From a virus: a stretch of DNA of 64,000 nt. The stretch lies in the IMG/VR virus record IMGVR_UViG_3300021960_000053, positions 1 to 64,000 of that record; one strand, given 5' to 3'. Position 1 is the stretch's first letter, and every line of letters starts with the position of its first letter. The translations under genes and the position numbers were made by a program. This document shows positions 2,290 to 21,774 of this stretch, piece by piece. The notes beneath the pieces were generated by a model. The model was not told the origin of the DNA and ran no database searches. It saw only the letters and a list, made by a program, of their open reading frames with translations.

Positions 2290-2319
2290 ATTGTAGCATC
2301 CAGGTTAGAGACCTGTCAA
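2290..2319 (-). promoter_or_regulatory. Sigma-70-type promoter for psbA
   Basis: The minus strand reads TTGACA (2319-2314), 18 bases, TACAAT (2295-2290). It overlaps the end of the halogenase gene and points at psbA. An AATAAATA element overlapping the -10 resembles a T4 late promoter but is not exact. Confidence 0.75.
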
Positions 2320-3417
2320 GGGATGTACATTGTCAATCCAGTTACGGAAATAGGTGGTGTACCAATGACCATAAGTAGGTGTATCGTCATTGATCAGTTC
2401 AAGTCTTGACTTAGACTTTGCATCAGTGATGAAATCGAAGAACCGCTGATCATAAGAATGAGAGCGACTCATCTCCTCCGCTGCTGACCAGAACATTGTA
2501 GCATACTTAGACCCGTTAGCGTAATGCCAGAGGATGAAATTCTGTACCTCTTCGACATCTGTCACAAGCTCTTGGAGGATCGACCTCTTTGATCTTCCAT
2601 CAAAGATCCATTGGCAAACTAAAGAAGTCCAACGATAGTATGTTTCAACCGAACTCGCTTCTAATGGTTCGATAAACAACAACCTATTACCATTCAAGAT
2701 AACCTTATCATTTTGAATTGGTTTCCTGGCAAGATAGTTATTGAAATGCAAAGTATCGGTCGGAGTAACACCAAACATTTTTTGTATGTTTACTTTTGCT
2801 TCTTCATTGGAAGTGTATTTGTTGTTGTACAAATATCCATACGAAGTAAATCCTTTGTTGGGTATGCCGAAGCACCACCCGTCTGGAGTAGCAATACAAC
2901 GAGTCCAGTGCTGATCAGGATCTCTGTAACTGTCCCGACCTAAGACAACACTGTTCAAAGGATTCTTAAGGATGTTGTAATAAGAAAAATCTTTAGGAGT
3001 TCCTCTACAGTCAAAGACATAATCGCAATCCAATTCATTGCAATCATCAACATGTCTTTCTATAAATTTACATACCTTCTTTGCAATCATACACTCTCTC
3101 AGTTTGTCTGGAGAGTAGTGTATTGCCATGTAATCCATGGGAAATGGGTTGAAGAACTTATCTTTCTTCTTTCCCCATCCCTCATACAAAATTCCTGATT
3201 TAAATGTGGCGTCGATCTCATTGTTATACCAATCGACACCAAGAATCTCATGAATAAGACCGACAAAGTTTACTAAAGATCCCTGTCCTACTTTCTCAAT
3301 AGGAATCTTAGGATCGTAATAAACTTCAATCTCTACATCTTGACCGTAAGTTTCTCTAATCAAAAATAGGGCAACGACTAAACCGCCGTTGCCCCCACCA
3401 ACAACACCAATTTTCAT
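2305..3417 (-). CDS. prnA: Flavin-dependent tryptophan-halogenase-like protein
   Basis: 370-residue member of the tryptophan halogenase (PrnA-type) flavoprotein family, which uses FADH2, oxygen and halide to halogenate an aromatic substrate. An N-terminal Rossmann motif (VVGGGNGGLVVAL, residues about 5-17) binds FAD. DGWCFGIP near residue 190 stands where the family has its GWxWxIP motif, and RLLFIEPLEASSVE is another conserved block. It is shorter than the roughly 500-540 residues of antibiotic-pathway halogenases, so the substrate pocket may differ. It overlaps the preceding 54-residue gene by four bases (ATGA) and its end carries the psbA promoter. The substrate is unknown; a flavin reductase would have to come from the host. 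Confidence 0.85.
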   Translation of the reverse strand: MKIGVVGGGNGGLVVALFLIRETYGQDVEIEVYYDPKIPIEKVGQGSLVNFVGLIHEILGVDWYNNEIDATFKSGILYEGWGKKKDKFFNPFPMDYMAIHYSPDKLRECMIAKKVCKFIERHVDDCNELDCDYVFDCRGTPKDFSYYNILKNPLNSVVLGRDSYRDPDQHWTRCIATPDGWCFGIPNKGFTSYGYLYNNKYTSNEEAKVNIQKMFGVTPTDTLHFNNYLARKPIQNDKVILNGNRLLFIEPLEASSVETYYRWTSLVCQWIFDGRSKRSILQELVTDVEEVQNFILWHYANGSKYATMFWSAAEEMSRSHSYDQRFFDFITDAKSKSRLELINDDTPTYGHWYTTYFRNWIDNVHPLTGL

Positions 3418-6260: not shown

Positions 6261-7052
6261 TTACTTCCCTTCAAAACCAGGGGGTAACCGACCAAGGTAA
6301 GGATTGAGATCGAAGAACTGATTCCAATCTTCAACCATGTTAGCATCGTTCCTCCAGAAATTCCAAAGGGCATCATGACAATTACGATGGAACACATCGA
6401 TATGCATGTCATGAATGTCTGACCCAAGAGCAATCTTATACATTAAGATTGGCATGGCATAGGTCAGACCACTGTTGTAGAGAAGATCATCAGCAACAGC
6501 GCGTGGTTTAATTCTACCATCTAGTTTGTACTTCCCATTCTTAGTATAAAGATCGAGAAGTTTATGACCATACCTGCGATTAATGACATAGGCAGCTGTT
6601 GAAAAGTCATTTACGAAGCGATAATGCATCTGCATGACAGGCATCGCAGGGTTGATGATTGCAATCTGGAGACAATCCCATGCAGCAGGTGCATGGCGAA
6701 AGAAATCTTTCCAAGAAAATGGCCAATGCTTGACCACTTCTAGATCGCAATCATCTTCCATCATTATAGCATAATCATCAGTGGAAGTTTCCAACCAATG
6801 TTGAATTGCTTTGAGGTGAGAAGTTACACAACCAATCTCACCCGATGACATATTGTCTGGATATTTACCAGCAATAATATCACTCAGGTCATCATGACGA
6901 CCGTCATAGGCAGAGATCCTAGTATGTTTTTCAATTTGCCAATATGCAAATTGATCTTCCATAAACTTACGACGATCTGTTTTATCGTCTAAGTTCAACC
7001 AATAGATATGAGGAATGTCTTTGAGTTTTGGTGCAGATTTATTTTTGTCCAT
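6261..7052 (-). CDS. Glycosyltransferase family 25 protein
   Basis: 263 residues of the GT25 (LPS glycosyltransferase) family. Signature blocks are IYWLNLDDKTDRRKFME near the N-terminus, SSGEIGCVTSHLKAIQ, and the acidic metal-binding motif MMEDDCDLE (about residues 110-118). Such enzymes usually transfer galactose or related sugars to lipopolysaccharide cores. The start at 7052 is chosen because it reads MDKNKSAPKLKDIPH; it overlaps the upstream gene by 14 bases. It is the last gene of the glycan cluster. Confidence 0.88.
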   Translation of the reverse strand: MDKNKSAPKLKDIPHIYWLNLDDKTDRRKFMEDQFAYWQIEKHTRISAYDGRHDDLSDIIAGKYPDNMSSGEIGCVTSHLKAIQHWLETSTDDYAIMMEDDCDLEVVKHWPFSWKDFFRHAPAAWDCLQIAIINPAMPVMQMHYRFVNDFSTAAYVINRRYGHKLLDLYTKNGKYKLDGRIKPRAVADDLLYNSGLTYAMPILMYKIALGSDIHDMHIDVFHRNCHDALWNFWRNDANMVEDWNQFFDLNPYLGRLPPGFEGK

Positions 7053-7992
7053 GCTTAGCAATCACTTCGTTCACATTAGGTAGGTAATGGTTTTGCAGGA
7101 CATTAGTCCAATCAAACTCTTTAGCATACTCTAGGATCTCTTCCCGATGGGAGACTGAATACTCCCTGTTCTTGATTATAGCATACTCAACATATTCCAC
7201 ATCATCAATCTTTGATTCTGGAATAACTGTAATAAACTCACGATCAAGATCCAGGTTTGCTGTAGCAAACTCACTGACCACAACACCGAGACCAGAAGCA
7301 AATGCTTCCATGATAACCAGAGAGTGTGCCTCACCATCAGACAGGAGCACAAGGTTACCATAGTCAGTCAGATAGTCATGGAGATATTCTTTCTTCCATT
7401 CACCGAGATAGTTTTTGTTAGCATTGAACCTCTTGTCAGCAATGTTACCAGCAAAGAACAGACTGTCGATGGACTGGAACTTATGCTGACGCTTACGGTA
7501 GTCAATCTTGGCAAGGTAGATACTACGGTCAGGGAACTCTGGTTCATCCGTGGTGCGGAAGAGATCTAGGTTTACACCATTAGGAACGATAGCAAGTTTC
7601 TCTTCTGGGATATCACCAAAGAATTGATACGCTTTCTTGATGCCTTCGGAGAGGCAGAAGACATTCGGTTTAGTCCGTTGGAAGTGACCGAAGATCTGCC
7701 CATACCCATTCATCTTGTCTGGGCGTTCGATGTAGGCAAAGTGGGTGGTACACGCACAAGGATATTGCACATAAGGATAGAGAACAACCCAGTCGTCATA
7801 ATGAATATGCACGAAATCAGGGCGAAACGCATTGATTCTCTTGATGATCTCTCTAGGATCTGAGACATTGATGATGTCAACTTCATGACCTAACTTCTCC
7901 AAGGTAAGTTTGTAGTCCCAGATAAGACTCTCTACTGCTCCCCAACCTACGGGAGGGATAGGAGTGGCGGGACCAACGATAGAGAATCTCAT
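7039..7992 (-). CDS. GT4-like glycosyltransferase, copy B
   Basis: 317 residues of GT-B fold. The N-terminal glycine-rich loop (IVGPATPIPPVGWGAVESL) and the C-terminal nucleotide-sugar-binding block with the E-x7-E arrangement (SLVIMEAFASGLGVVVSE) are characteristic of retaining GT4 enzymes. It is a clear tandem paralogue of the gene upstream (7989-8951): both start with the GPxxxIPPxGWGAVE pattern and share WDY followed by LGHEV/RVEIIN. Start and stop overlap by four bases (ATGA). The sugar and acceptor cannot be read from sequence. Confidence 0.85.
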   Translation of the reverse strand: MRFSIVGPATPIPPVGWGAVESLIWDYKLTLEKLGHEVDIINVSDPREIIKRINAFRPDFVHIHYDDWVVLYPYVQYPCACTTHFAYIERPDKMNGYGQIFGHFQRTKPNVFCLSEGIKKAYQFFGDIPEEKLAIVPNGVNLDLFRTTDEPEFPDRSIYLAKIDYRKRQHKFQSIDSLFFAGNIADKRFNANKNYLGEWKKEYLHDYLTDYGNLVLLSDGEAHSLVIMEAFASGLGVVVSEFATANLDLDREFITVIPESKIDDVEYVEYAIIKNREYSVSHREEILEYAKEFDWTNVLQNHYLPNVNEVIAKHGQK

Positions 7993-8951
7993 AGTAACGA
8001 CTGCAACTTCGGAATGTATTCATAAGCAAGAATGTTTTCAAGACCGAATTCGTAAATGCCGTATTCTCTGATCTCTTTTCTATGCTGCTTAGATACTTTT
8101 TTATTGTTCTCGATTGTCTCAAGAACATATTCAAGGTTATTTATTTTGCTTTCTGGGATTACATCAATCCAAGGTTTAGAAGTGTCAAGTTCAGGAGCAA
8201 CTGCTTCCGAACAAACAACACCAAGTCCACAAATCAATCCCTCTTTAATAACAAGAGGAGTGGTATTCTCAACTTCACTCAAGAGAGCAATGTTTGAATA
8301 GCAAGTAATGTACTCATTGAGTTTTTCTCTAACGACTTCTCCCTTATAGTTCTTATTCCTCTTATCAAACTTACCACCAAACTCCATGCGACCCATAAAG
8401 TCAACGCTATCAATTTTCTCTAGGAGATACTGACGCTTACGGTCTACAATCTGAGAGAAGCAAAGAGTTCTATCCCAACTAGCAAACTCATCAAACTTAT
8501 AAGGTTCGGGGCGAACTCCTAGTTTACTCAACCAGACACGATTAGGATTAGCACCAAGACTAATCCAGGTATCAATATCTTTCTGAGATGAACAGAAAAT
8601 ATGATGCTTTCTATTAGCAGCAATTTTTTGAGCGATGGGTCCATAACCATCTCTACCCCACATATGTGGAGTATTAACATATGGATAATGACTAGAGACG
8701 ATCAGTGCTCCGCATAAAGGAGCCAGGTCATCAATGATGTCATGGAAAACATCATAATGAAGGTGAACAATGTCATACTTTCCGTGAGCAACTTCAAATT
8801 TGATTAGTTCCCTGTCGGGAGTGTTAATGATTTCAACACGATGACCCAAGTCTCTAAGGATCATGGTGTAATCCCAGATAAGCATCTCTACAGCACCCCA
8901 CCCATCAGGCGGAATCTGCATAATGCCAGGACCAATCAAAGCAATTTTCAT
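7989..8951 (-). CDS. GT4-like glycosyltransferase, copy A
   Basis: 320 residues of GT-B fold, starting MKIALIGPGIMQIPPDGWG. The ATG at 8951 overlaps the stop of the preceding GT-A gene (ATGA) and is preferred to the ATG five codons upstream. The C-terminal block TPLVIKEGLICGLGVVCSE corresponds to the donor-binding E-x7-E region. It is paralogous to the next gene downstream, so this pair probably arose by tandem duplication and now adds two successive or alternative sugars. Confidence 0.85.
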   Translation of the reverse strand: MKIALIGPGIMQIPPDGWGAVEMLIWDYTMILRDLGHRVEIINTPDRELIKFEVAHGKYDIVHLHYDVFHDIIDDLAPLCGALIVSSHYPYVNTPHMWGRDGYGPIAQKIAANRKHHIFCSSQKDIDTWISLGANPNRVWLSKLGVRPEPYKFDEFASWDRTLCFSQIVDRKRQYLLEKIDSVDFMGRMEFGGKFDKRNKNYKGEVVREKLNEYITCYSNIALLSEVENTTPLVIKEGLICGLGVVCSEAVAPELDTSKPWIDVIPESKINNLEYVLETIENNKKVSKQHRKEIREYGIYEFGLENILAYEYIPKLQSLL

Positions 8952-9787
8952 CTGTAAGTCTCCCAATACATCGTCTCTTTAATTTGATTAACAAATCCAG
9001 GGCTATGTGCAATAAGTGATGGAATGTTTTGGTATGCTGCATGGAAGGCAAACACTTTTTCGTATTCATCTTCCTGAGGATTCTTACCATACCAAATACC
9101 ATCAACAAGTTTCATGTCTTGTTGAGTTGCCGCAGCACAATGATTGAATGCACCGTTAGTAAATTTATATCCGCCAACTTCGTTCATGGCAAGACAGAGA
9201 ACAAGCTCGTCTGTGACACCATCATGCAATCCACCATCACCAAAGATGTCATTAAAGATTTCCATGTAACGAGTAAACAAATTATCATGCTTACCCTTCT
9301 GAAAAAGGAATGCTCCCGACGCAGCATAGTCATAGGTACTAAGATCCTCTGGAAAATATTTTCCAAGTCCAGTCTTATCTACTTGAACTTTACGGATATA
9401 ATCTTCTAGGGTAGGCACCCACCAGTGACGGGCAATCAAGAAATCATCTTGTGCCTCTTCAATCAATTGATCAACACGATCATTGACAACTACACAATCG
9501 GTATCAAGATAGATGCAGTAGTCAGTTTCTACATGCTTGAAGACATTATAACGCTCCGCCCAAATGTGTGGTTGAAACCAGTTACGATCATCCTCATTAC
9601 GAATAGCATCAGCATTTGCCTTGACAATCTTTACTTTAGGATCATCGATATCCAACCGATCATCCATATCAAGGATAACAATTTCATGATCTTGTTCGAT
9701 CCTCTCAAGGGATTCACAAGCCCTCATCAAATTCTTATAGTAACTATCATCGCCACCAACGATGAATCCAAAACTCAGTTTAGTCAT
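8948..9787 (-). CDS. GT-A fold glycosyltransferase
   Basis: 279 residues with an N-terminal nucleotide-binding half (LSFGFIVGGDDSYYKNLMR, EIVILDMDD) and a metal-binding DxD motif in YCIYLDTDCVVVND (about residues 92-105). These are features of GT2/GT8-like inverting or retaining GT-A enzymes; the family cannot be assigned securely. It lies in the glycan operon with a four-base overlap to its upstream neighbour. Confidence 0.75.
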   Translation of the reverse strand: MTKLSFGFIVGGDDSYYKNLMRACESLERIEQDHEIVILDMDDRLDIDDPKVKIVKANADAIRNEDDRNWFQPHIWAERYNVFKHVETDYCIYLDTDCVVVNDRVDQLIEEAQDDFLIARHWWVPTLEDYIRKVQVDKTGLGKYFPEDLSTYDYAASGAFLFQKGKHDNLFTRYMEIFNDIFGDGGLHDGVTDELVLCLAMNEVGGYKFTNGAFNHCAAATQQDMKLVDGIWYGKNPQEDEYEKVFAFHAAYQNIPSLIAHSPGFVNQIKETMYWETYR

Positions 9788-10707
9788 AGTAATTTAAGAA
9801 GTCCGTTGATACGATTGACATAAGTATGATGCTCTCTAGTATGACGCATCTGTCTAAGAATGAGTTCTTTGTCGTCTTTATTACGAAGACCTTCTTCAAA
9901 CAACTCTAAAATATTCTCCCTACAAATAACATCAGGACCAGCAAACTCTGCTAGTTTGGGGGAGTTTGTAAGTCCAAGATTACCATAACTCATAGTCTTG
10001 AATACTCTACAAGTTTTAGTTCCCCACAATTTATGAGTTTCATTTCTAAGGTCGGGAGAAAGAAAAGATTTCTGCATCAATCCTCTCATGACTTCACCAT
10101 CAATAGGGTTAGTCCAAGGGTTAGACCATACAGTATCCACACCAATTTTAGCACATAACTGAGCAAACTCTTTAATAAGATGTGCGTTCATAAATCTACC
10201 ATCGGGAGAAATACTACCGATAAAATAGAAAGTATTCTCTCTCTGGATGTTTACCCAGTCTTCATTAAATTCTTCTGGAAGAATATCAGTTGCCCACGCT
10301 AAGTAAGAGATATCATATCCTTTTTCCTTTGACATGGCACGATCAACACATACGCCAGTGTCCAGTTCTTCAAACTGGGTGACATCGTGATCGAATTCAT
10401 AGTTATCATTATCCATCTTATCTTGATGGTAACGCATGTCAATCAGTTTCTTGACATTGCCAAGATACTTCTCAGGATTCACACATACATGCACATAATA
10501 TGTGCTGTTCTTCCTCAAAGGAATATTTTTATCAGCATACCCTTCTGTAAAGAACACGCAGTCATCATAATCAAAGTCTTCAGGATACTCATTGTCATGG
10601 AACCAAAAGACTTCGTGACCTGCTCTCTCTAATGCTTTTTGAAATCCTTCATGCACATATGAATATGTGTCAGAGTGAAGAGGATATCCCCAGAGAACAC
10701 AACGCAT
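9784..10707 (-). CDS. Probable GT-B glycosyltransferase (CgeB-like)
   Basis: 307 residues. The N-terminus MRCVLWGYPLHSDTYSYVHE and the C-terminal segment (SYGNLGLTNSPKLAEF, then a helix and REHHTYVNRINGLL) resemble the glycosyltransferase-like proteins of the CgeB/DUF3880 type, in which a short-range nucleotide-sugar site is followed by a HTY-R motif. It is flanked by an FkbM-type methyltransferase and a GT-A enzyme in the same operon. Donor and acceptor are unknown. Confidence 0.65.
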   Translation of the reverse strand: MRCVLWGYPLHSDTYSYVHEGFQKALERAGHEVFWFHDNEYPEDFDYDDCVFFTEGYADKNIPLRKNSTYYVHVCVNPEKYLGNVKKLIDMRYHQDKMDNDNYEFDHDVTQFEELDTGVCVDRAMSKEKGYDISYLAWATDILPEEFNEDWVNIQRENTFYFIGSISPDGRFMNAHLIKEFAQLCAKIGVDTVWSNPWTNPIDGEVMRGLMQKSFLSPDLRNETHKLWGTKTCRVFKTMSYGNLGLTNSPKLAEFAGPDVICRENILELFEEGLRNKDDKELILRQMRHTREHHTYVNRINGLLKLL

Positions 10708-11408
10708 CAGACTCTCCCCAGCATGTAATCTTCTGCTTTCTTAGTTTCTCCAGTCACACACTTCATAGCATCGATAGTATGAGAAGGGACAAGATCAGGA
10801 TGAGCCCACCAATCTTCGAAAGGATGCTGATCGTCAACGGAAATATTGTCAGCAATAAGAACATAACCGAATGACTCAAGATACTCACGAGAAGCATCAC
10901 GGACTTCAGGACCATCGTTGTAAGAGTCATGCTCGAAGGTGATGGTGGCGAACTTATACTTATTAAGATCGATACGCTTCAGTGCCTCAAAGGTAACAGA
11001 AGAAGGTTCACAATCTACCTGAAGGTAATCAAAGGTAGGACCAAGACCAACTTCCTCAAACAGTTCATCGAAGTCAGCAGTAGTTGCATCACCTACAGCA
11101 ACCTTTGCTCTACGATGTTTGTTATAAAGATCAGACTCATGTTCTTTAATTTCAAATCCAATACCATCCCATTCAAAACGAGACTCAAGCAGAGCAGTAT
11201 TGTTAGAAATAATAGGATGACCAGATCCAATCTCAACGAATGTTCCCCTCGGTCTTCCATCAGTCATACACAGGACAAACATATCCTGATAACACTGAGA
11301 AAAATTCTGATGACTTACCAGTTCAAGTCCAGGGAATTTATAACGGATTTCACTTGCTTTTTCAGCAGTGTAAAAGGTTGGCATTTGCCAGGCATTAGGG
11401 TCGCTCAT
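10707..11408 (-). CDS. FkbM-type SAM-dependent methyltransferase
   Basis: 233 residues of the Methyltransf_21/FkbM class, enzymes that O-methylate sugars or polyketides. The SAM-binding glycine loop is TFVEIGSGHPIISNN (about residues 55-69). Acidic residues follow each later strand (GIGFEIKEHES, YLQVDCEPSS, TITFEHD). It overlaps the GT6 gene by four bases and ends where the next glycosyltransferase begins. It probably methylates the glycan assembled by this cluster, which is inference. Confidence 0.82.
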   Translation of the reverse strand: MSDPNAWQMPTFYTAEKASEIRYKFPGLELVSHQNFSQCYQDMFVLCMTDGRPRGTFVEIGSGHPIISNNTALLESRFEWDGIGFEIKEHESDLYNKHRRAKVAVGDATTADFDELFEEVGLGPTFDYLQVDCEPSSVTFEALKRIDLNKYKFATITFEHDSYNDGPEVRDASREYLESFGYVLIADNISVDDQHPFEDWWAHPDLVPSHTIDAMKCVTGETKKAEDYMLGRV

Positions 11409-12112
11409 ACTTGATAAGATGAATTATCTTTGGCTAGGTGAATAATTTTTTGCTCGTAAGGATAGTTTGGAAAACATTCGGGGAATGCATAGTCAGGAGG
11501 TAGAGCATTAACCTCATCCTGATTTTCAATAAAGAATCTATTCAAATGACTCTCATCATGCCATAAGGCAATTATACCATTTTCATAGTCTTTGTCAACT
11601 CTATCTCTCAAGAGTTTCATCATAGGAATTACAGACTCAATCCTACCTCCCCATAGACATCCTTGATAGTAAGACTGTTGTTCTCCAGTCACACATGCTT
11701 CAGATTCAAGACGCCGCTCAAAGGTCCCAGTTCCAGTATTGTAATGGCATGGATGATGGACAGCAATATAATCTTTGCCGAACTTGAAGAATTCTTCAGG
11801 AGAAATTTCCTGATTGACTTTCATATCAGCATCAAGGAATAACAACCAATCGTGCTCCTCCAACTCTTCTTGTGCTAACAAGATCGTATGGAACCTCTCT
11901 AAGGTAATAGAGGGCCATTCTTTATGAGGAATTTTCAGGACTGTTATATGGTCAGGTAATGCATCCCCTACAATTTCACCATCGGTAAAGATAAAGTATT
12001 GCTTACGAAGTTCGGGAAACAAATATTTTTCACAAGACTCATAGTATCCAGGAAAAAAATTAAGATACTTATTAGTACCAATAAAAATTATTGCAACTGT
12101 TGCATTTTTCAT
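11405..12112 (-). CDS. GT6 glycosyltransferase (ABO blood-group type)
   Basis: 235-residue retaining alpha-1,3-Gal/GalNAc transferase of family GT6, the family of human ABO transferases and animal alpha-1,3-galactosyltransferases. Seen directly: the metal/donor motif LFLDADMKV (DAD at 94-96), the acceptor region SYYQGCLWGG (148-157) and WHDESHLNR (184-192). WHDESHLN is also present in animal GT6 enzymes, where its Glu (here E187) is catalytic. It is soluble, with no membrane stem. The start at 12112 overlaps the GT11 stop (ATGA). GT6 in animals acts on Fuc-alpha-1,2-Gal acceptors, which the adjacent GT11 enzyme could make. Confidence 0.93.
   Translation of the reverse strand: MKNATVAIIFIGTNKYLNFFPGYYESCEKYLFPELRKQYFIFTDGEIVGDALPDHITVLKIPHKEWPSITLERFHTILLAQEELEEHDWLLFLDADMKVNQEISPEEFFKFGKDYIAVHHPCHYNTGTGTFERRLESEACVTGEQQSYYQGCLWGGRIESVIPMMKLLRDRVDKDYENGIIALWHDESHLNRFFIENQDEVNALPPDYAFPECFPNYPYEQKIIHLAKDNSSYQV
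11571..11598 (-). promoter_or_regulatory. Candidate internal promoter inside the GT6 gene
   Basis: Minus strand TTGACA (11598-11593), 16 bases, TATAAT (11576-11571), within codons for VDKDYENGII. Both hexamers are consensus, but it is wholly coding, so chance is possible. If active it would boost FkbM and the downstream glycosyltransferases. Confidence 0.4.
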
Positions 12113-12918
12113 ACCACTTCCCAACCTTCGCAATACAGATCTTTAGTGTCATTGATTTGATTCAGAGGAGGACCAAACCATTTAGATGGTGCGACTACTC
12201 TCTTGTTCGGATTAGTGCAGAGCCATGCTCCCCACCAACTAAAAGAACTATTAGCAATAATAAAATCACTGCAGAGAGACATCATACAAAGATCAAGATA
12301 CTGATCATTTGTTTCGGAAACTAAGAACCTGTCGTTATCGAACATTTCTTCTTGGAGGCACCACTCTGGATCATCAGAGAAAATAATCACTTCACGATTA
12401 GAGTCGAACCTTGCCAACGCTTCCTTATAGTAATTTATATCACAAATAGGATGGTGAGAATAATTGGCGTAGTCAGTACGACGAACATGTAATGCAATGG
12501 GATTAGTGACATCCGTAATCATCTTCTTACATGGTTCCAGATACTCATCCTTGAATTTAAAGTCAAGGAGAAGATCTTCTCTAATGTGCTTGAAGTATTT
12601 TTCTGACTGGAAGAAACCAAATATACTTACAAAGTCTGGACAATTGTTAAAGAGATTCTCATCAAACTCAAAAGACTCTTCCCTGACAATGGGACGATCT
12701 TGATCAATAGACTGAACCTGAAGAGCACTTAAACTTGAAAGTTCAAAGGGAACAAACAGTTGATGCTCATTCCATTCATCTGCTTTGTTCTTATAATTTG
12801 ATGGGGGAACACAGTAGTTGAACCCCCGATTAGCAGCGATACCCTTTACAGCAGCATACTGAAACATTTGATTGGCAAGACGCTCTTTCATCTTGCCGAC
12901 ATAGTTAATACCAATCAT
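12109..12918 (-). CDS. GT11 alpha-1,2-fucosyltransferase
   Basis: 269 residues of family GT11, which transfer L-fucose from GDP-fucose, most often alpha-1,2 to galactose. Family motifs in order: ERLANQMFQYAAVKGIA (residues about 12-28, the GDP/acceptor-binding N-terminal motif), ALHVRRTDYANY (the HxRRxD motif that binds GDP-fucose), FSDDPEWC, and CSDFIIANSSFSWWGAWL. It directly follows the GDP-fucose synthase gene with a four-base overlap, which supports fucose as donor. Together with GT6 it can produce an H-antigen-like and then A/B-like structure. Confidence 0.92.
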   Translation of the reverse strand: MIGINYVGKMKERLANQMFQYAAVKGIAANRGFNYCVPPSNYKNKADEWNEHQLFVPFELSSLSALQVQSIDQDRPIVREESFEFDENLFNNCPDFVSIFGFFQSEKYFKHIREDLLLDFKFKDEYLEPCKKMITDVTNPIALHVRRTDYANYSHHPICDINYYKEALARFDSNREVIIFSDDPEWCLQEEMFDNDRFLVSETNDQYLDLCMMSLCSDFIIANSSFSWWGAWLCTNPNKRVVAPSKWFGPPLNQINDTKDLYCEGWEVV

Positions 12919-13868
12919 CTCGTTTGAATATCAGTGTTTTCAATAAACCACTTATAGGTTTCGCGTAGACCATCTTGAAGATTGTACTTTGGTTTCCAAC
13001 CTTTATCTAAAAGTTTGGAGTAATCAAGAGGACGCTTGGGAGTGCCATCAGGTTTAGAAGTATCCCACTCAATTTTCCCTGTGTACCCAGTTACATTAGC
13101 GACCATGTTAGCAAGTTCTGCAATGGTCACATCTTCACCAGATCCAACATTCAACAACTCTGCAGACTCGTAGTTCTCCATAGCGAAGAGACATGCGTCT
13201 GCAAGGTCATCAACATAGAGAAACTCACGACGAGGGGTGCCTGTGCCCCAGCAGGTCACTGGAGCGTCTCCTACGGTCCAGTTGTTGAACTTCTGGAGCA
13301 TAGCAGGGATCACATGCCCGTTCATGGGGTGGAAGTTATCGTTAGGACCATACAGATTGGCAGGCATCAGGGAGACACCCTTGAACCCGTACTGCTTGTA
13401 GTAAGACCTCAGCATGTAGATGCCATGGATCTTAGCAAGAGCATACGCATCGTTGGTAGGCTCCAGTTCTCCAGACATCAGAGACTCTTCCTTTACAGGA
13501 GTCGGTGCAAACTTAGGGTAGATACATACGCTTCCAAGGAAAAGAAACTTTTGTACACCATGCTTCCAGGCATAGTGAATAAGGTTGGTTTGGATCTGAG
13601 TGTTCTGGTAGATAAACTCTGCCGAGTAAGTATCATTGGCATGGATACCACCGACACGAGCAGCAGCATCAAACACATAGTCGATACCTTCAGACCTGAA
13701 GAACTTTTCGACAGCAAACTGATCCATAAGATCAAGCTCCTGCCGAGTTCTAGTAATGATGTTCTCATAACCTTCTTCTTGAAGACGGCGAACAATGGCA
13801 GATCCAACTAAACCACGATGACCAGCGACAAAAATTCTTGCGTGTTTCTGCATTGTTCTCAGTTTCAT
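12915..13868 (-). CDS. fcl: GDP-L-fucose synthase
   Basis: 317-residue short-chain dehydrogenase/epimerase that converts GDP-4-keto-6-deoxymannose to GDP-L-fucose using NADPH. The N-terminal Rossmann motif is FVAGHRGLVGSAIV and the catalytic Tyr-Lys pair sits in NDAYALAKIHG. The block SVCIYPKFAPTPVKE is typical of WcaG/Fcl. ATG 13868 overlaps the C-methyltransferase stop; a second in-frame ATG at 13853 would also give the family N-terminus. It acts after the Gmd encoded two genes upstream. Confidence 0.96.
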   Translation of the reverse strand: MKLRTMQKHARIFVAGHRGLVGSAIVRRLQEEGYENIITRTRQELDLMDQFAVEKFFRSEGIDYVFDAAARVGGIHANDTYSAEFIYQNTQIQTNLIHYAWKHGVQKFLFLGSVCIYPKFAPTPVKEESLMSGELEPTNDAYALAKIHGIYMLRSYYKQYGFKGVSLMPANLYGPNDNFHPMNGHVIPAMLQKFNNWTVGDAPVTCWGTGTPRREFLYVDDLADACLFAMENYESAELLNVGSGEDVTIAELANMVANVTGYTGKIEWDTSKPDGTPKRPLDYSKLLDKGWKPKYNLQDGLRETYKWFIENTDIQTR

Positions 13869-15115
13869 GGAATAATTACGACTTCAGGTTCGGGAAGTGG
13901 GAATAAGAACCGACGACCTTTAAACTTTTCATTCTTCAGGAAGAAATCTCTAAAGTGCCAGGGAAGAACAATATGAAGATCATATTCTTTTTCCAGCACA
14001 CTCTCTTCGCTAGTAATAGGAATCCAAGTTCCAGGTGTAAAGGATCCGTCTTTGTCAGGATTAACATCACCAACAGCGGCAACATCTTTAGGACCAATCT
14101 CCCAGGTTTGCAGCGTTACATTTCCTTTAGTGCTGGCACCAAGGGCACAGATCTTAGAACCATTACGACGATAGAAGTCCATGATTTCCCAGAACTGTTT
14201 CTTACAGGCATTAATACGCTCTGCAAAAGCTTCCCAAGGTTCAACGGTATCCAGTTTGTCTTCCAACTCTGAGGCAATAAGAGCAGTAAGTTTTACTGTA
14301 CATTCCTTACGCTCACTGTTGGTAGAAGGAGTTACTACTACAGAGATACTACCACCATTAACATCATTGAATTCAAAATCAACAATCTTGAATCCAGACT
14401 TATCCATGATGTACTTGAGTTGTCTCATACCATAGTAGGAGAGATGCTCATGACATACTGTGTCAAACGAATTGACCCGCAGCATCGTTGGCATATAACT
14501 TTGCTCAAGCACCCAGATTCCGCGAGGATCAAGGATGTCATGGACCTGGCGGGCAAACTCGCAGGGATCTTCAAGGTCATAGAACATCGAGAACGATGTA
14601 ACTACCTTTGCTTTCTGCTTACCGAACCGCTCACGATAAACATCGGAAGAGAAGAAGTCGGCAATATAATTTACATTCTCAGGAATGTAATCTCTAAACT
14701 TTTTCGAGGTGGGATCAATGCTCATGAGTTGCAGATCATGGGGGAAGAACCCCAAGAAGGTGCCATCATTACCTGCAATATCAATTACGATATCGCCAGA
14801 GTTAAACTTGACATCACGCATAATCTTCTCTGCCTTTCCACGCAGGTGACGAACCATGCTACCGTTCAGACCAGAACGATAACCATACTCTTCACCATAC
14901 ATGGTAGGAAGATCAAAGGTATGTTCTAGTTGAACATGACCACATCCACCTTTAGACTCGTCACACTTGACGAGAGTGAGAGGACCTTTGTACATGTCCT
15001 CATCGATCTCTTTGGGAAAAATGCCAGAAAGATATTGATCACCAAGATCCAAGACTGTGATCAGGTGTTCATTACCACATACTCTGCACTTTTCAATTCT
15101 GTGAAATTTACTCAT
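13865..15115 (-). CDS. NDP-sugar C-methyltransferase (TylC3-like)
   Basis: 416 residues with the three-part layout of sugar C-methyltransferases: an N-terminal zinc domain (CRVCGNEH near residue 9 and [10 protein letters not shown] near 51), a SAM-binding domain ([15 protein letters not shown]) and a C-terminal domain. The active-site motif [13 protein letters not shown], matching the conserved HEH(L/I)xYY of TylC3/NovU/CloU enzymes, is present. Those enzymes methylate C-3 or C-5 of 4-keto-6-deoxy sugars. Here the nearby Gmd produces a 4-keto-6-deoxy sugar, so a branched deoxysugar derived from it is plausible; this is inference. Confidence 0.87.
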
Positions 15116-16104
15116 TGTCCGTTAATACACATGTCTTCTACAAGATCTTGGAAACTATATTCTGGTTCCCATCCTAGCACAGTTTTTGCTTTTGTTGCAT
15201 CCCCAAGTAGTTGCTCTACTTCTGTTGGGCGGTAGTATTTAGGGTCTACGCGAACGATCACTCTGTTGAGATTCTTACAGAATCCAACTTCATCAAGACC
15301 CTCTCCACGCCACTCAATATTGAATCCAAAGTAAGATGCAGATTCGTTAACAAACTCACGAACACTACGCATCTCACCTGTAGCAAGAACAAAATCATCA
15401 GGAGTTTCGTGCTGAACAATCATCCACATACCACGAACATAATCTAATGCATGTCCCCAATCACGCTGAGCATCCAGATTGCCTAGTTCTAGGACATCTT
15501 GGAGTCCACTAGAGATGCGTGAGAGTCCTCTCGTGATCTTACGGGTAACGAAGGTTTCACCTCTCCGTGGGGACTCATGATTGAAAAGTATGCCATTGCT
15601 AGCATGGATACCATACGCTTCACGATAGTTCTTAACAATCCAATATGCATACATCTTTGCTACACCATATGGTGAGCGAGGATAGAAAGGAGTGGTCTCT
15701 TTCTGAGGGACCTCTTGAACAAGTCCATACAGTTCGCTTGTGGATGCCTGATAGAACTTACAAGGATGTTCCAATAAACGAATAGCCTCTAGGAGACGCA
15801 GGGTTCCTAGAGCATCAACTTCTCCCGTATACTCAGGCATATCAAAAGACACCTTTACATGACTCATGGCAGCAAGGTTATACACCTCAGTAGGTTTGAT
15901 CTTTTGAATCAAACTCATGAGGTTACCTGCATCAGTCATGTCTCCATAATGTTTATGGATTTTATTATAGATGTGATCAATACGATGCGTATTAATTAAA
16001 GAAGAACGGCGTACAATGCCGTGAACTTCATACCCCTTTTGGAGAAGAAATTCGGCAAGGTACGAACCGTCCTGTCCTGTTATTCCTGTAATTAATGCTC
16101 TCAT
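15112..16104 (-). CDS. gmd: GDP-mannose 4,6-dehydratase
   Basis: 330-residue short-chain dehydratase that makes GDP-4-keto-6-deoxy-D-mannose, the precursor of GDP-L-fucose. The NADP-binding motif [19 protein letters not shown] is at the N-terminus and the catalytic YxxxK is in [13 protein letters not shown]. Family blocks [13 protein letters not shown] and [17 protein letters not shown] are intact. It is the first enzyme of the glycan cluster, overlapping the next gene by four bases. Length and motifs are as in the bacterial family. Confidence 0.96.
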
Positions 16105-18817: not shown

Positions 18818-18823
18818 ATTATA
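18818..18823 (-). promoter_or_regulatory. Extended -10 promoter for tRNA-Gly
   Basis: Minus strand TGCTATAATGTATC just upstream of tRNA-Gly and overlapping the end of the upstream oxygenase. The TATAATGTAT string recurs at 53347 and 59335, both in intergenic gaps. Confidence 0.5.
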
Positions 18824-19385
18824 GCACATCTTCTAACTTTCTGACGCGCCAGACCACAGTATATCTATACACATAAGGATGGCGTGGTCCTAGACCCCTG
18901 TGAGGAATTTCAGACGGGAAGATAAGAACTCTACCAGGAACATATTCATGTTCCTCTATAACTTCATTGTCTTCATTTACAATTTGAAATTGACCACCCC
19001 ATTCTTTAGAGTCCCATTTAGTATTCACCATATACATGATGGTGTAATCTCCAGGATCTCCATCAACATGGGATGTACCATCACAAAAAGAGTGTTGTAG
19101 GTTGAAATCGATTCTATTTAAAAGAAGAGGAAAGTCAACCTGCTCCTCAATATGAGCGAACATATTAAAGAAACACTCACACTTGGGAGTCCAGTTAACT
19201 ATATGATTGATCGAACTTCTTTCAAAAAGATTTTCACCAAATAATTTATGAGTGCCATGTTGCCCTGCAGGATAACCAGTACCGTTTGCCTCATTGATAG
19301 CAGTTACAGGAAGATGGAGCATAGTCTTCTCAACCTGCACCATATAGTCATAATCAAAAAGGTTATCTAAAATTTGAGCAATCAT
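18819..19385 (-). CDS. Prolyl-4-hydroxylase-like 2OG/Fe(II) oxygenase 3
   Basis: 188 residues. HxD is in SHVDGDPGDYTIMYMVN and the distal His in IFPSEIPHRGLGPRHPY, with RYTVVWRV as closing strand and 2OG-binding Arg. EWGGQFQIV matches the GG.F strand of the P4H-type jelly roll. All catalytic ligands are present, so it is probably active. The target could be a peptidyl proline or another small substrate; nothing in sequence decides. Confidence 0.87.
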   Translation of the reverse strand: MIAQILDNLFDYDYMVQVEKTMLHLPVTAINEANGTGYPAGQHGTHKLFGENLFERSSINHIVNWTPKCECFFNMFAHIEEQVDFPLLLNRIDFNLQHSFCDGTSHVDGDPGDYTIMYMVNTKWDSKEWGGQFQIVNEDNEVIEEHEYVPGRVLIFPSEIPHRGLGPRHPYVYRYTVVWRVRKLEDVL

Positions 19386-19714
19386 TAATCACGCTGTCTC
19401 CAGTCATCAGGTTTATCTCTTTGGAACCAATCTACAATTTCATCTGCAGATTTAAACCCCGTACTATGGTTGGATGGGTCGGGGTCTCCTAGTCCCATCC
19501 TATTCATAAAATCATCCATACTTCCTTCTTGAATATCTCCCGCTGCTTGGCGTCGTGCTTTGTTTAACCAGTCTCTTGCAGTTGTATATGACTTGGCAAG
19601 TTTCTCTGCCCAAATCATATCCTCAAGATTCACCTCTTCTTTGTTTGATATCTTCTTACAGATACCTTCAAGACGAAGACGATACTGTGTTGACAGCATA
19701 CCAGATATGTCCAA
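19385..19714 (-). CDS. Conserved hypothetical protein, 109 residues
   Basis: Helical N-terminal two thirds (EGICKKISNKEEVNLEDMIW, AEKLAKSYTTARDWLNKARR) and a short charged tail ending KPDDWRQRD. A second ATG at 19699 (MLSTQYRLRL) is an alternative start. No domain recognised. It sits between two oxygenases and shares one base with the downstream gene. Confidence 0.7.
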   Translation of the reverse strand: MDISGMLSTQYRLRLEGICKKISNKEEVNLEDMIWAEKLAKSYTTARDWLNKARRQAAGDIQEGSMDDFMNRMGLGDPDPSNHSTGFKSADEIVDWFQRDKPDDWRQRD

Positions 19715-19732
19715 TCTTTCTAGTATTTAGGA

Positions 19733-20377
19733 CTATATCTGTATCCATTTGGACGGAGAGGTAACAACATTTTCATACTGGTCGTCTACATTTTCTGTAG
19801 ATGTTACAAAAATATCGTACACAATAGATGCTCTAAACTGTTCACCATAAAAATCTGTGACTCCATGGAGCATAGAAGAAGGAAAGATGATTAAGTCTCC
19901 TACTTGAGGATCGATTTTATAATATGAGTATTCATCTCTCAAAGTTACAGGCATAGAATCTAAAACTCCAAGATTACTGAATGCTAGTTCTCCGCCTTCT
20001 CCTTCTGTTCTAAGATAATAAACAGCACTAAAGTGTGACCCTCTATGAGTGTGGTGAGAAGTTTTTCCCTCCTGAGAATTACAGACTGTAGTCCATGCCT
20101 TTTGAACAAAGATATTATATTCTAAATCAGAGATTTGACTTAGATAGTCTTTCATTGATTGTGAGATTACATAGTTCAACCAGTAAAACTCTTTATTGTG
20201 CTGAAGAAGAAAGAACTTTGGTATATCTTGATCTCCAGTTAGTCCACCGTAACCTTCAATATCTTTCTGGTTTTTGTAGTAAAACTCCTCAGCATATCTC
20301 ATCATACCTTCCATAATATTAGAAGGACAATCAAAATGAGTATGATAAATTGGAATTGAAAATAAGTTTTTGATCAT
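19733..20377 (-). CDS. 2OG/Fe(II) oxygenase 4 (TIGR02466-like)
   Basis: 214 residues resembling the phage/marine-bacterial family of putative 2OG-Fe(II) oxygenases. The block TSHHTHRGSHFSAVYYL provides histidine ligands. IIFPSSMLHGVTDFYGEQFR provides the distal His and an Arg. The N-terminus (FSIPIYHTHFD) is the usual short strand of this family. It starts three bases after tRNA-Ser, so it shares the tRNA promoter region. Confidence 0.84.
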   Translation of the reverse strand: MIKNLFSIPIYHTHFDCPSNIMEGMMRYAEEFYYKNQKDIEGYGGLTGDQDIPKFFLLQHNKEFYWLNYVISQSMKDYLSQISDLEYNIFVQKAWTTVCNSQEGKTSHHTHRGSHFSAVYYLRTEGEGGELAFSNLGVLDSMPVTLRDEYSYYKIDPQVGDLIIFPSSMLHGVTDFYGEQFRASIVYDIFVTSTENVDDQYENVVTSPSKWIQI

Positions 20378-20379
20378 AA

Positions 20380-20466
20380 CGGAGAGTTAGGGATTTGAAC
20401 CCTAGATGAAGTTACCCCCATACAGCATTTCCAGTGCTGCTCCTTAAACCACTCGGACAACTCTCC
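20380..20466 (-). tRNA. tRNA-Ser (anticodon GGA)
   Basis: 87-base class II tRNA with a long variable arm, acceptor GGAGAGT / ACTCTCC, anticodon loop CTGGAAA (GGA) and T-arm TAGGGTTCAAATCCCTA. No CCA encoded. It is part of a three-tRNA run. Confidence 0.94.
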
Positions 20467-20468
20467 AA

Positions 20469-20540
20469 CTCCCCTGGCAAGATTCGAACTTGCGACCCAT
20501 TGATTAACAGTCAACTGCGCTACCGCTGCGCCACAGAGGA
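20469..20540 (-). tRNA. tRNA-Asn (anticodon GTT)
   Basis: Acceptor TCCTCTG / CAGGGGA, D-arm GCGCAGCGGTAGCGC, anticodon loop CTGTTAA (GTT) and T-arm GCAAGTTCGAATCTTGC. Two bases separate it from tRNA-Ser, implying a shared precursor. Confidence 0.94.
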
Positions 20541-20547
20541 ATGAAGG

Positions 20548-20619
20548 AGCCACATGTCAGATTCGAACTGACGACCTACCGCTTACAAGGCGGTTGCTCT
20601 ACCACTGAGCTAAAATGGC
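20548..20619 (-). tRNA. tRNA-Thr (anticodon TGT)
   Basis: Acceptor GCCATTT / ATGTGGC (one mismatch), D-arm GCTCAGTGGTAGAGC, anticodon loop CTTGTAA (TGT) and T-arm GTCAGTTCGAATCTGAC. First of the Thr-Asn-Ser run downstream of a TTGACA-TACAAT promoter. Confidence 0.93.
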
Positions 20620-20630
20620 GTGTGTGATAT

Positions 20631-21125
20631 TTATTTGTTGAAATAATCCTTTCGGTAGTATCTACCGAGGATATTACTATTGTAGTATGCAGGAGTGCCA
20701 TCTGTCAAGGCACTCGTCAACACATCATGAAGAAATAATTGACGAGTCTCCTCGTAGTTTACCCTTCCTGGGGTTCCGTGGAGAGAAAGAATTTCTCGTG
20801 AAAATCCATCCCTACCGCTTTGCCTAATATCTTCTTTAAGCTCTGGACAACTTCCGTAGTATTTCTTCCAGTCACTTTCAATCGTAACTCTTCTTTGTCT
20901 ATTACTACTGCTAGTTCTAGGCTTTCGTTTTGACCAGAAGTACTTCCTACCAATGTAGGATTTTCCCGTTGCATTATTTGTAATCCTGTAGACAAAACCG
21001 AAGTTGTCGCCAATGTCATCAGACTCAAAGTGGTGACCATCGTACATCCAAGGGTTAGGATAGGAGCATGAGCCAGAAGAAGCTCCCCCTTCGCCCTCAT
21101 TTTTTCTCTCAAGGTCGTCATTCAA
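20631..21125 (-). CDS. GIY-YIG family endonuclease-like protein
   Basis: 164 residues. FVYRITNNATGKSYIGRKYF (about residues 44-63) carries a VY...YIG arrangement, the nuclease signature. SDWKKYYGSC follows in the position of the conserved Arg/Glu region. The N-terminal 40 residues are a disordered Gly/Ser/Glu linker. Phage GIY-YIG proteins include free-standing homing endonucleases and repair or host-DNA-degrading nucleases; which applies here is unclear. Its 3' end contains the promoter of the tRNA run. Confidence 0.75.
   Translation of the reverse strand: MNDDLERKNEGEGGASSGSCSYPNPWMYDGHHFESDDIGDNFGFVYRITNNATGKSYIGRKYFWSKRKPRTSSSNRQRRVTIESDWKKYYGSCPELKEDIRQSGRDGFSREILSLHGTPGRVNYEETRQLFLHDVLTSALTDGTPAYYNSNILGRYYRKDYFNK
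20679..20708 (-). promoter_or_regulatory. Sigma-70 promoter for the Thr-Asn-Ser tRNA run
   Basis: Minus strand TTGACA (20708-20703), 18 bases, TACAAT (20684-20679), the same hexamers and spacing as the psbA promoter. It lies in the 3' end of the GIY-YIG gene, about 60 bases before tRNA-Thr. Confidence 0.7.
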
Positions 21126-21182
21126 ATGAATTTCAAAGAACTCTAAGGTATATAGAAGATCTAGATCAACCCTAGCAAAGCG

Positions 21183-21211
21183 ATTCTACTCATAAAAAAG
21201 AATCTTGTCAA
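21183..21211 (-). promoter_or_regulatory. Sigma-70 promoter for the GIY-YIG gene
   Basis: Minus strand TTGACA (21211-21206), 17 bases, TAGAAT (21188-21183). The -35 overlaps the stop codon of the upstream oxygenase, and the start of the GIY-YIG gene lies about 58 bases downstream of the -10. Confidence 0.65.
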
Positions 21212-21774
21212 GCCATTGTAAATGTATTCATCCCAAGAGTGGGAGAAAACCATCCAGTTAAAATATATTTGTCACCCTTTAAAGGAGGATTACCCCTATG
21301 AAGATGGGTAAAAGAACCTGGCCAAATCACTGCCATGTTTTTCTTTGGTTTAATTCTAATTCTTTGGTATAAGAATTCAGTTTCTCCACCTTCTTCAACA
21401 TCATTTAGATAAATCATCCAAGCAACCATTCTGCTAACATCACTATATGACCCATCTTCGCAATGCCAAGTGTGATATCCTTCACTGGGAGAAGTTTTTT
21501 GAAGAAGTACAGTTCCCGTAAACCAATCTTTCCTACTTTTAAGATATGGAAATTCTTCAAGATAATTTGCAAATGCATTATTAATTAGAAAATTATTAAT
21601 GTCTTTTGCTAAAACAGGGTAAAAAGGATCAAGAGTAAACTGTTTATCTTGTAAGTGAGCCGTAACGCTCCTATGATCATAAACTATTTGATTGTTAACC
21701 CTATCTAAAAGAAATTCAATGCATTCTTCTGATAAAACATTTTCATAAGTTTTAATAAAATTTTGTTCTTCCAT
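21208..21774 (-). CDS. 2OG/Fe(II) oxygenase 5 (prolyl-4-hydroxylase-like)
   Basis: 188 residues. HxD-type ligands are in GYHTWHCEDGSYSDVSRMVAW (the pair before the DGS turn). EEGGETEFLYQRIRIKPKKN gives the jelly-roll strands typical of P4H domains, and the distal His is in WPGSFTHLHRGNPP. ILTGWF closes the domain. A TTGACA-containing promoter candidate precedes it. Substrate unknown. Confidence 0.85.
   Translation of the reverse strand: MEEQNFIKTYENVLSEECIEFLLDRVNNQIVYDHRSVTAHLQDKQFTLDPFYPVLAKDINNFLINNAFANYLEEFPYLKSRKDWFTGTVLLQKTSPSEGYHTWHCEDGSYSDVSRMVAWMIYLNDVEEGGETEFLYQRIRIKPKKNMAVIWPGSFTHLHRGNPPLKGDKYILTGWFSPTLGMNTFTMA

Follow-up and report, generated by a model that had tools for sequence, protein, structure and literature searches.

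The window examined here, i.e., the whole stretch of DNA that was analysed (64,000 of the 72,967 bases of the virus record IMGVR_UViG_3300021960_000053), carries a cassette of five genes, gmd, a sugar C-methyltransferase gene (CMT), fcl, GT11 and GT6. On balance we think it probable, if far from certain, that this cassette makes a guanosine diphosphate (GDP)-linked C-methyl analogue of L-fucose, from which GT11 and then GT6 would build a methylated cap resembling the H and A/B blood-group structures. Gene content, enzyme families, kept catalytic motifs and a conserved gene order are all evident from comparison of the sequences. The five genes, with their family and structure database matches, are:

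15112 to 16104, minus strand: gmd, GDP-mannose 4,6-dehydratase (TIGR01472, 550 bits, cut-off 415; Pfam GDP_Man_Dehyd, 2.1e-148; PDB 5uzh, 9.5e-142)
13865 to 15115, minus strand: CMT, sugar C-methyltransferase, 'CHEH' subfamily (Pfam Methyltransf_13, Methyltransf_23 and Methyltransf_14; PDB 4rv9, 1.1e-40)
12915 to 13868, minus strand: fcl, GDP-4-keto-6-deoxymannose epimerase/reductase, Val-type (Pfam Epimerase, 9.5e-66; PDB 1bsv, 5.2e-105)
12109 to 12918, minus strand: GT11, alpha-1,2-fucosyltransferase family (PF01531 Glyco_transf_11, 1.4e-24, 87.3 bits, cut-off 23.9; HxRRxD at 144-149)
11405 to 12112, minus strand: GT6, ABO-type retaining glycosyltransferase, DXD type (PF03414 Glyco_transf_6, 3.5e-28, 98.7 bits, cut-off 25)

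All five are intact, share the minus strand and overlap by 4 bases at each of the four junctions (the GT6 ATG is at 12112, and the list of open reading frames shows a TTG upstream at 12133). A previous interpretation made from the letters alone (hereafter the sequence-only reading) had described a head-to-tail operon with four-base overlaps at 11405-16104, and the open reading frames together with Pfam matches above the cut-offs bear this out. Its family assignments for GT11 and GT6, a supply of GDP-6-deoxyhexose and a cyanophage setting are supported. Its five genes are real, but the overlapping minus-strand run is longer, comprising 11 genes from 16104 down to 6261, and GT6 is not the last of them. 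It had also named the CMT and assigned it no role.

The search for the same order in other viruses, which that reading had proposed for cyanophages, was rewarded. Among viral loci found with the CMT alone (the best 80 of 145 IMG/VR relatives, mostly fragmentary virus records), the exact order gmd–CMT–fcl–GT11–GT6 occurs, with diverged proteins, in 27, some of them near-copies of each other, and 8 more hold the cassette with GT11 and GT6 further along the same stretch; many of the remaining 45 are short or cut within the run, and some long ones are without GT11 or GT6 in the stretch. As the order recurs with diverged proteins, the five-gene arrangement is not a product of chance. In the assessable viral loci, the gene immediately upstream of the CMT is gmd (at least 45% identity) in 74 of 79, and the one immediately downstream is fcl in 63 of 67. 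We also searched 21 CMT-bearing virus records in their entirety, picked for length (none with a completeness estimate, several plainly fragments). In 17 of them the CMT shares 64% identity or more with that of the window, and each of these 17 holds one Fcl (at least 50% identity) and one GT11, and hence a phage-made donor for GT11 would need to come from the cassette; some of these 17 hold further weak matches to short-chain dehydrogenase/reductase (SDR) genes.

At the DNA level, megablast found no match to the stretch 7989-16104 among 50,697 phage records. Protein searches of phage records returned 71 matches for GT6 (all below 60% identity), 103 for GT11, 85 for Fcl (E 1e-20; one above 60% identity) and six for the CMT, the only close one being in the metagenome-assembled cyanophage DSL-LC02 (OR032571; 65.9%). 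GT11 and GT6 form a tight, conserved pair in cyanophage-like viruses: of the 56 distinct GT6 genes that could be assessed (the window's included), 44 are directly preceded by GT11, six have it within 3 kb upstream and six do not. What supplies the pair differs, i.e., an SDR gene in S-CAM9, Bellamy, S-8S56, S-PRM1 and SynMITS9220M01 (the SDR genes of the two scanned, S-CAM9 and Bellamy, fall below every NCBIfam cut-off), gmd-fcl in DSL-LC03 (OR003938), another metagenome-assembled cyanophage, and gmd-CMT-fcl in the window. In P-SSM2 and ACG-2014f other genes intervene between GT11 and GT6.

The CMT shares with sugar C-methyltransferases an architecture of three domains (Methyltransf_13, an S-adenosylmethionine domain and Methyltransf_14 in Pfam). 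Its relatives among solved structures are D-mycarose 3-C-methyltransferase (4rv9), a sugar 3-C-methyltransferase (8.9e-31) and TcaB9 (ca. 3e-30), which acts on C3. It matches no PHROG family at E 1e-3 and no NCBIfam family at 1e-5. TylC3-type C-3 methyltransferases are marked by a Tyr two residues before a Glu-His pair, and this Tyr is catalytic in them. It is not found in the window CMT: Tyr at this position in the three solved relatives gives way to Cys in the window enzyme and in 147 of 150 distinct relatives aligned, viral and bacterial, the three exceptions being remote paralogues (25-27% identity). Glu223 and His224 are invariant across the 150. Because Cys replaces this Tyr, the CMT represents a distinct subfamily of TylC3-type relatives, with no solved member in the structure search; the label 'TylC3-like' in the sequence-only reading is right as to kinship and wrong as to subfamily. 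Among the best 80 of 458 bacterial relatives, a Gmd of at least 53% identity is present at 44 loci (directly upstream in 14), a Gmd paralogue (34-53% identity) lies directly upstream instead in 34, and in 32 the directly upstream gene is of neither Gmd type. The best cellular CMT match among the matches listed belongs to a contig of an uncultured gammaproteobacterium (L096), a CMT-fcl pair 58% and 66% identical to the phage genes and one of the two bacterial loci in which fcl directly follows the CMT. A host origin of the CMT was considered and is unsupported, as no cyanobacterium is named in the titles of the best 80 of the 458 bacterial relatives, cyanobacteria not having been searched directly.

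The Fcl of the window keeps the catalytic Ser, Tyr, Lys, Cys and His when aligned to the E. coli GDP-fucose synthetase 1bsv (the residues are named as catalytic in the E. coli enzyme in PMC3539893), and it scores 446 bits against the GDP-L-fucose synthase model NF047922 (below the cut-off of 500), the Fcl of the CMT-less DSL-LC03 scoring 444. It carries V114 between S113 and C115, where E. coli has Ser108 between Ser107 and Cys109. In a first set of Fcls, Val was present in 47 of 48 CMT-adjacent proteins versus none of 10 others. A motif scan of viral contigs chosen independently of the CMT (first serine TCN only, Ser108 TCN only) recovered 74 stretches with the Val motif, of which 19 were outside any Fcl and seven cut off. 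The CMT is adjacent in 37 of the other 48, in four of them as a remote CMT (33-35% identity; L179, L198, L199 and L200), and many of the 37 contigs overlap the CMT-found set. For the Ser motif, 80 stretches were listed of more than 120; setting aside one outside Fcl and nine cut off, the CMT is adjacent in none of 70. The sole viral exception to the Val rule, known from the CMT search and also the one exception in the first set, is a short gmd-CMT-fcl contig (L055) with a Ser-type Fcl 54% identical to the window's.

A quick tree of 128 Fcls, built with the Val column left out and containing many weak branches, places CMT-linked Fcls in 30 of the 35 rows of one clade versus two of the 93 other rows, these two being L055 and a bacterial locus (L171), both Ser-type; Val changes state twice on this tree and the CMT six times (shuffled mean 28.9). 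Val is thus the label of one Fcl clade in which a CMT is usual, not universal, and a Fisher p of 4e-21 for Val and CMT is not to be taken as counting independent events, Val being a clade mark. As L055 and L171 have Ser-type Fcl, Val is also unnecessary for pairing with a CMT. Two further arrangements were seen: one record (L200, IMGVR_UViG_3300023179_005629) holds two full Fcls, the Val-type by the remote CMT plus a Ser-type, and no GT11, and a remote virus group (L079, L080 and L081) has GT6, GT11, CMT and Gmd with no Fcl, these genes adjoining other nucleotide-sugar genes in L079.

All 95 relatives keep the HxRRxD motif of GT11 (duplicates not removed). GT11 found no credible sequence match among PDB chains; for its predicted model (predicted local distance difference test, pLDDT, 88; built from 23 sequences), 49 of the 50 listed structure matches are fucosyltransferases (FUT8, POFUT1, NodZ, plant FUT1), with modest TM-scores (0.42-0.59 by query length). 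The nearest solved structures to GT6 are BoGT6a (5.8e-30), then ABO transferases (ca. 1e-23), and its score against the NCBIfam subfamily NF041524 is 189 bits, below the cut-off of 250. Both motifs picked out in the sequence-only reading, DAD (94-96) and WHDESHLN (184-191), are present, and the DXD (D94-A-D96) and the catalytic E187 are each kept in 57 of 57 aligned sequences. The same reading's A or B structure is not assignable, as the donor-selecting triplet of the window enzyme, Q-G-C (found by column counts in 48 of the 57, with [A/C]GG in nine), fits neither LGG of the human A transferase nor MGA of human B, and is also unlike AGG of BoGT6a. The human A and B enzymes carry Leu/Met266 and Gly/Ala268, donor choice being ascribed to 266 (PMC4202792), and the bulky Gln/Cys pair of the phage enzyme may argue, mildly, against a GalNAc donor.

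The route that we favour would run as follows. Gmd would convert GDP-mannose to GDP-4-keto-6-deoxymannose, the CMT would add a methyl to one of the two carbons flanking the keto group (C3 being likelier than C5), and the Val-type Fcl would epimerise whatever remains epimerisable and then reduce C4. By stereochemical bookkeeping, ordinary Fcl action on a D-manno start gives L-galacto (fucose); a TylC3-like inversion at C3 would yield GDP-3-C-methyl-L-fucose, and retention GDP-L-virenose (3-C-methyl-6-deoxy-L-gulose). GT11 would transfer the methylated sugar alpha-1,2 onto a galactose-type acceptor, and GT6 would then attach a hexose in alpha-1,3 linkage next to that sugar. The other glycosyltransferases of the run, together with its FkbM-like methyltransferase, may build or trim the underlying chain. 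Either host lipopolysaccharide or the virion would in this way come to carry a methylated H/A/B-like cap. We infer every reaction here, its regio- and stereochemistry, the donor used by GT11, the acceptor and the target from sequence. TylCIII methylates C3 with inversion, and a GDP route has been named for L-virenose, in which C3 and C5 are epimerised following methylation (PMC3539893); we doubt the C3 step because a methylated C3 has no hydrogen. Gmd, C-methyltransferase and epimerase/reductase of that route are all together in the window, and the order in which it uses them, which is the one that we suggest, speaks for our reading. As a tentative extension, it is possible that widespread cyanophages and cyanophage-like viruses make their own GDP-3-C-methyl-L-fucose, and that GT11 and GT6 turn it into a blood-group-like, C-methylated trisaccharide that caps the host surface or the virion and differs from the plain fucose caps which competing phages and hosts carry. 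A change of the host surface is favoured for such cyanophage genes in PMC9602691.

The sequence-only reading had supposed a plain GDP-L-fucose donor. That Gmd and Fcl make just this, that GT11 and GT6 build ordinary H and then A/B structures, and that the CMT serves another sugar or a side branch seems to us unlikely, if well worth keeping in mind: the GT11 and GT6 families fit and their motifs are intact, Fcl retains E. coli-type catalytic residues and can adjoin a CMT as Ser-type (L055), DSL-LC03 has gmd-fcl-GT11-GT6 with no CMT, and GT11 relatives with and without a CMT interleave. However, the CMT stands between gmd and fcl in nearly all examined viral relatives, which leaves the plain donor unsupported as it was put, no second Fcl of at least 50% identity is found in 17 of 17 close-CMT records, and no other maker of a 4-keto sugar was recognised in the run by Pfam or PHROG. 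We hold it improbable that the CMT methylates C5 (giving a noviose-like sugar), or that another glycosyltransferase of the cluster uses its product while GT11 takes host GDP-fucose. C3 and C5 both flank the 4-keto group, TiaS2 supplies the methyl of the 5-methyl rhamnose of tiacumicin (PMC6963833), the CMT subfamily is one for which no solved member was found, and the run holds five other putative glycosyltransferases; the solved relatives, on the other hand, are named 3-C-methyltransferases, or are TcaB9, and GT11 is present in each of the 17 close-CMT records. Modification of phage DNA against restriction, the role that PMC10611076 proposes for GT6 in DSL-LC02 and DSL-LC03, deserves hardly any credence for the window, where GT6 is nearest to oligosaccharide-extending enzymes and is paired with a fucosyltransferase-family gene amid nucleotide-sugar genes, and where no base-modifying enzyme is among the Pfam and PHROG family matches of the run.

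Several points weigh against the C-methyl-fucose route itself. The activities of the cassette enzymes are predictions, a second Fcl may lie elsewhere in the mostly fragmentary virus records, the CMT differs from the three solved relatives at the Tyr position, and bacterial CMTs rarely go with an Fcl (directly downstream in two of 80). Val is not an independent test, because it arose about once on the tree, and an independent-pairs test of the Val-CMT association on the Fcl tree gave no support; Ser-type Fcls occur beside the CMT in viral L055 and bacterial L171, and eleven Val-type Fcls are without an adjacent CMT (read by eye, several of these loci have gmd directly upstream, and L191 is gmd-fcl-GT11-GT6). 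Coevolution of GT11 with the CMT was not found, cassette-bearing GT11s falling in two or three places of the tree, and as GT11 does not track the CMT, its donor may be either of the two, or plain fucose alone.

After GT6 the run continues to 6261 with six genes:

10707 to 11408, minus strand: FkbM-like methyltransferase, putative sugar O-methyltransferase (4-base overlap with GT6; 33% identity to a DSL-LC02 gene annotated FkbM family; no Pfam match)
9784 to 10707, minus strand: putative glycosyltransferase, Glyco_trans_1_2-like (PF13524, 22.1 bits, below the cut-off of 25; no PHROG match)
8948 to 9787, minus strand: putative GT-A glycosyltransferase, fold nearest GT6/GT8/GT24 (predicted model; no Pfam or PHROG match)
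7989 to 8951, minus strand: glycosyltransferase, GT4-like (phrog_33732, 7.3e-70; Pfam Glyco_transf_4 below cut-off)
7039 to 7992, minus strand: glycosyltransferase of the same PHROG as the preceding gene (phrog_33732, 2.2e-154)
6261 to 7052, minus strand: glucosyltransferase, relatives annotated family 25 (phrog_2835, 1e-112; scanned from 7049, ATG at 7052)

The gene at 8948-9787 is conserved, and its AlphaFold2 model (pLDDT 79) points to a GT-A glycosyltransferase fold; the best VIA row is BoGT6a (Z 17.1, root-mean-square deviation 3.0, 214 aligned), a match that ties with other GT-A families (LARGE1, LgtC, UGGT). The gene has no credible PDB sequence match, and its product shows no sequence similarity to the window GT6 (E 0.66). 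The late promoter consensus TATAAATA occurs seven times in the window (shuffle mean 2.6), with none directly upstream of gmd, and sigma-70-like sites are not in excess (25 versus 29 in shuffles); a perfect one (TTGACA-16-TATAAT with TG) lies at 11571-11598 on the minus strand within the GT6 gene. Outside the sugar run, phage-family matches of 20 window proteins fit a T4-like cyanophage, including psbA, DNA polymerase, UvsX, a DnaB-type helicase, nrdA, a clamp loader and a phrog_249 'porphyrin biosynthesis' gene, and the window has six tRNA genes. A tryptophan-halogenase-like gene (2305-3417; phrog_2928, 1.7e-69) adjoins psbA, and several 2-oxoglutarate-Fe(II)-oxygenase-like genes at 18819-21774 lie among tRNA genes, relatives being labelled in PHROGs also as 'DNA endonuclease V'.

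To our knowledge, most descriptions of cyanophage sugar clusters class them as host-surface genes and do not name a product. One example of this treatment is PMC9602691. The cassette offers a concrete, testable candidate product instead, i.e., a deoxyhexose 14 Da above fucose, for which the enzymes can be named, the gene order is defined and a signature runs through the clade. If the proposed route is true, a virus would make a carbon-branched sugar, a second system would be at hand for testing a proposed and unproven bacterial GDP route, and there would be a chemical handle on whether it is the host surface or the phage particle that such phages relabel. The blood-group chemistry of GT11 and GT6 is already known in bacteria (PMC4202792). 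New as far as our searches go are the proposed C-methyl branch and the wide conservation of its genes in a set order, the literature searches not having been aimed at C-methyl sugars in viruses. The sequence-only reading had regarded the whole operon as a seemingly undescribed antigen-building unit. The A/B idea is less new than that, the DSL-LC03 run standing in a deposited genome and the E. coli O86 pair being known, and the novelty lies in the methylated variant.

In E. coli O86, WbwK (GT11) and WbnI (GT6) likewise act in this order on galactose, giving H and then B, but from a bacterial chromosome for which the consulted part of PMC4202792 describes no C-methyltransferase, while the phage pair belongs to a cassette with a CMT. 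Bacterial GT6 enzymes have NxN in place of DxD (PMC4202792), and BoGT6a of Bacteroides ovatus, the closest solved relative of the phage GT6 (PMC3961637), has NXN and the triplet AGG where the phage enzyme has DXD and QGC. Cyanophages are already known to carry GT6 (two are mentioned in PMC3961637) and gmd-fcl (PMC10611076, PMC9602691). Prochlorococcus phage P-SSM2, like the window, groups gmd, fcl, GT11 and GT6 in a single cluster, but with two genes between GT11 and GT6, no CMT and a GT6 only 33% identical. DSL-LC03 shares the gmd-fcl-GT11-GT6 run, unlike the window with no C-methyltransferase in it and with a Ser-type Fcl, and DSL-LC02 has the gmd-CMT-fcl run with GT11-GT6 later in the cluster, other glycosyltransferases lying between the two; the available portion of its paper (PMC10611076) contains no discussion of the methyltransferase. 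The methyltransferase of Coxiella burnetii is 42-44% identical to TylCIII, EryBIII and AviG1 (PMC3539893), whereas the phage CMT is only remotely related to solved C-3 enzymes and belongs to the CHEH subfamily, the two being set apart by description. The GDP-L-virenose route of Coxiella, an in silico proposal only, would work as we suggest for the phage, with Gmd, a TylC3-type C-methyltransferase and an epimerase/reductase acting on GDP-4-keto-6-deoxymannose (PMC3539893).

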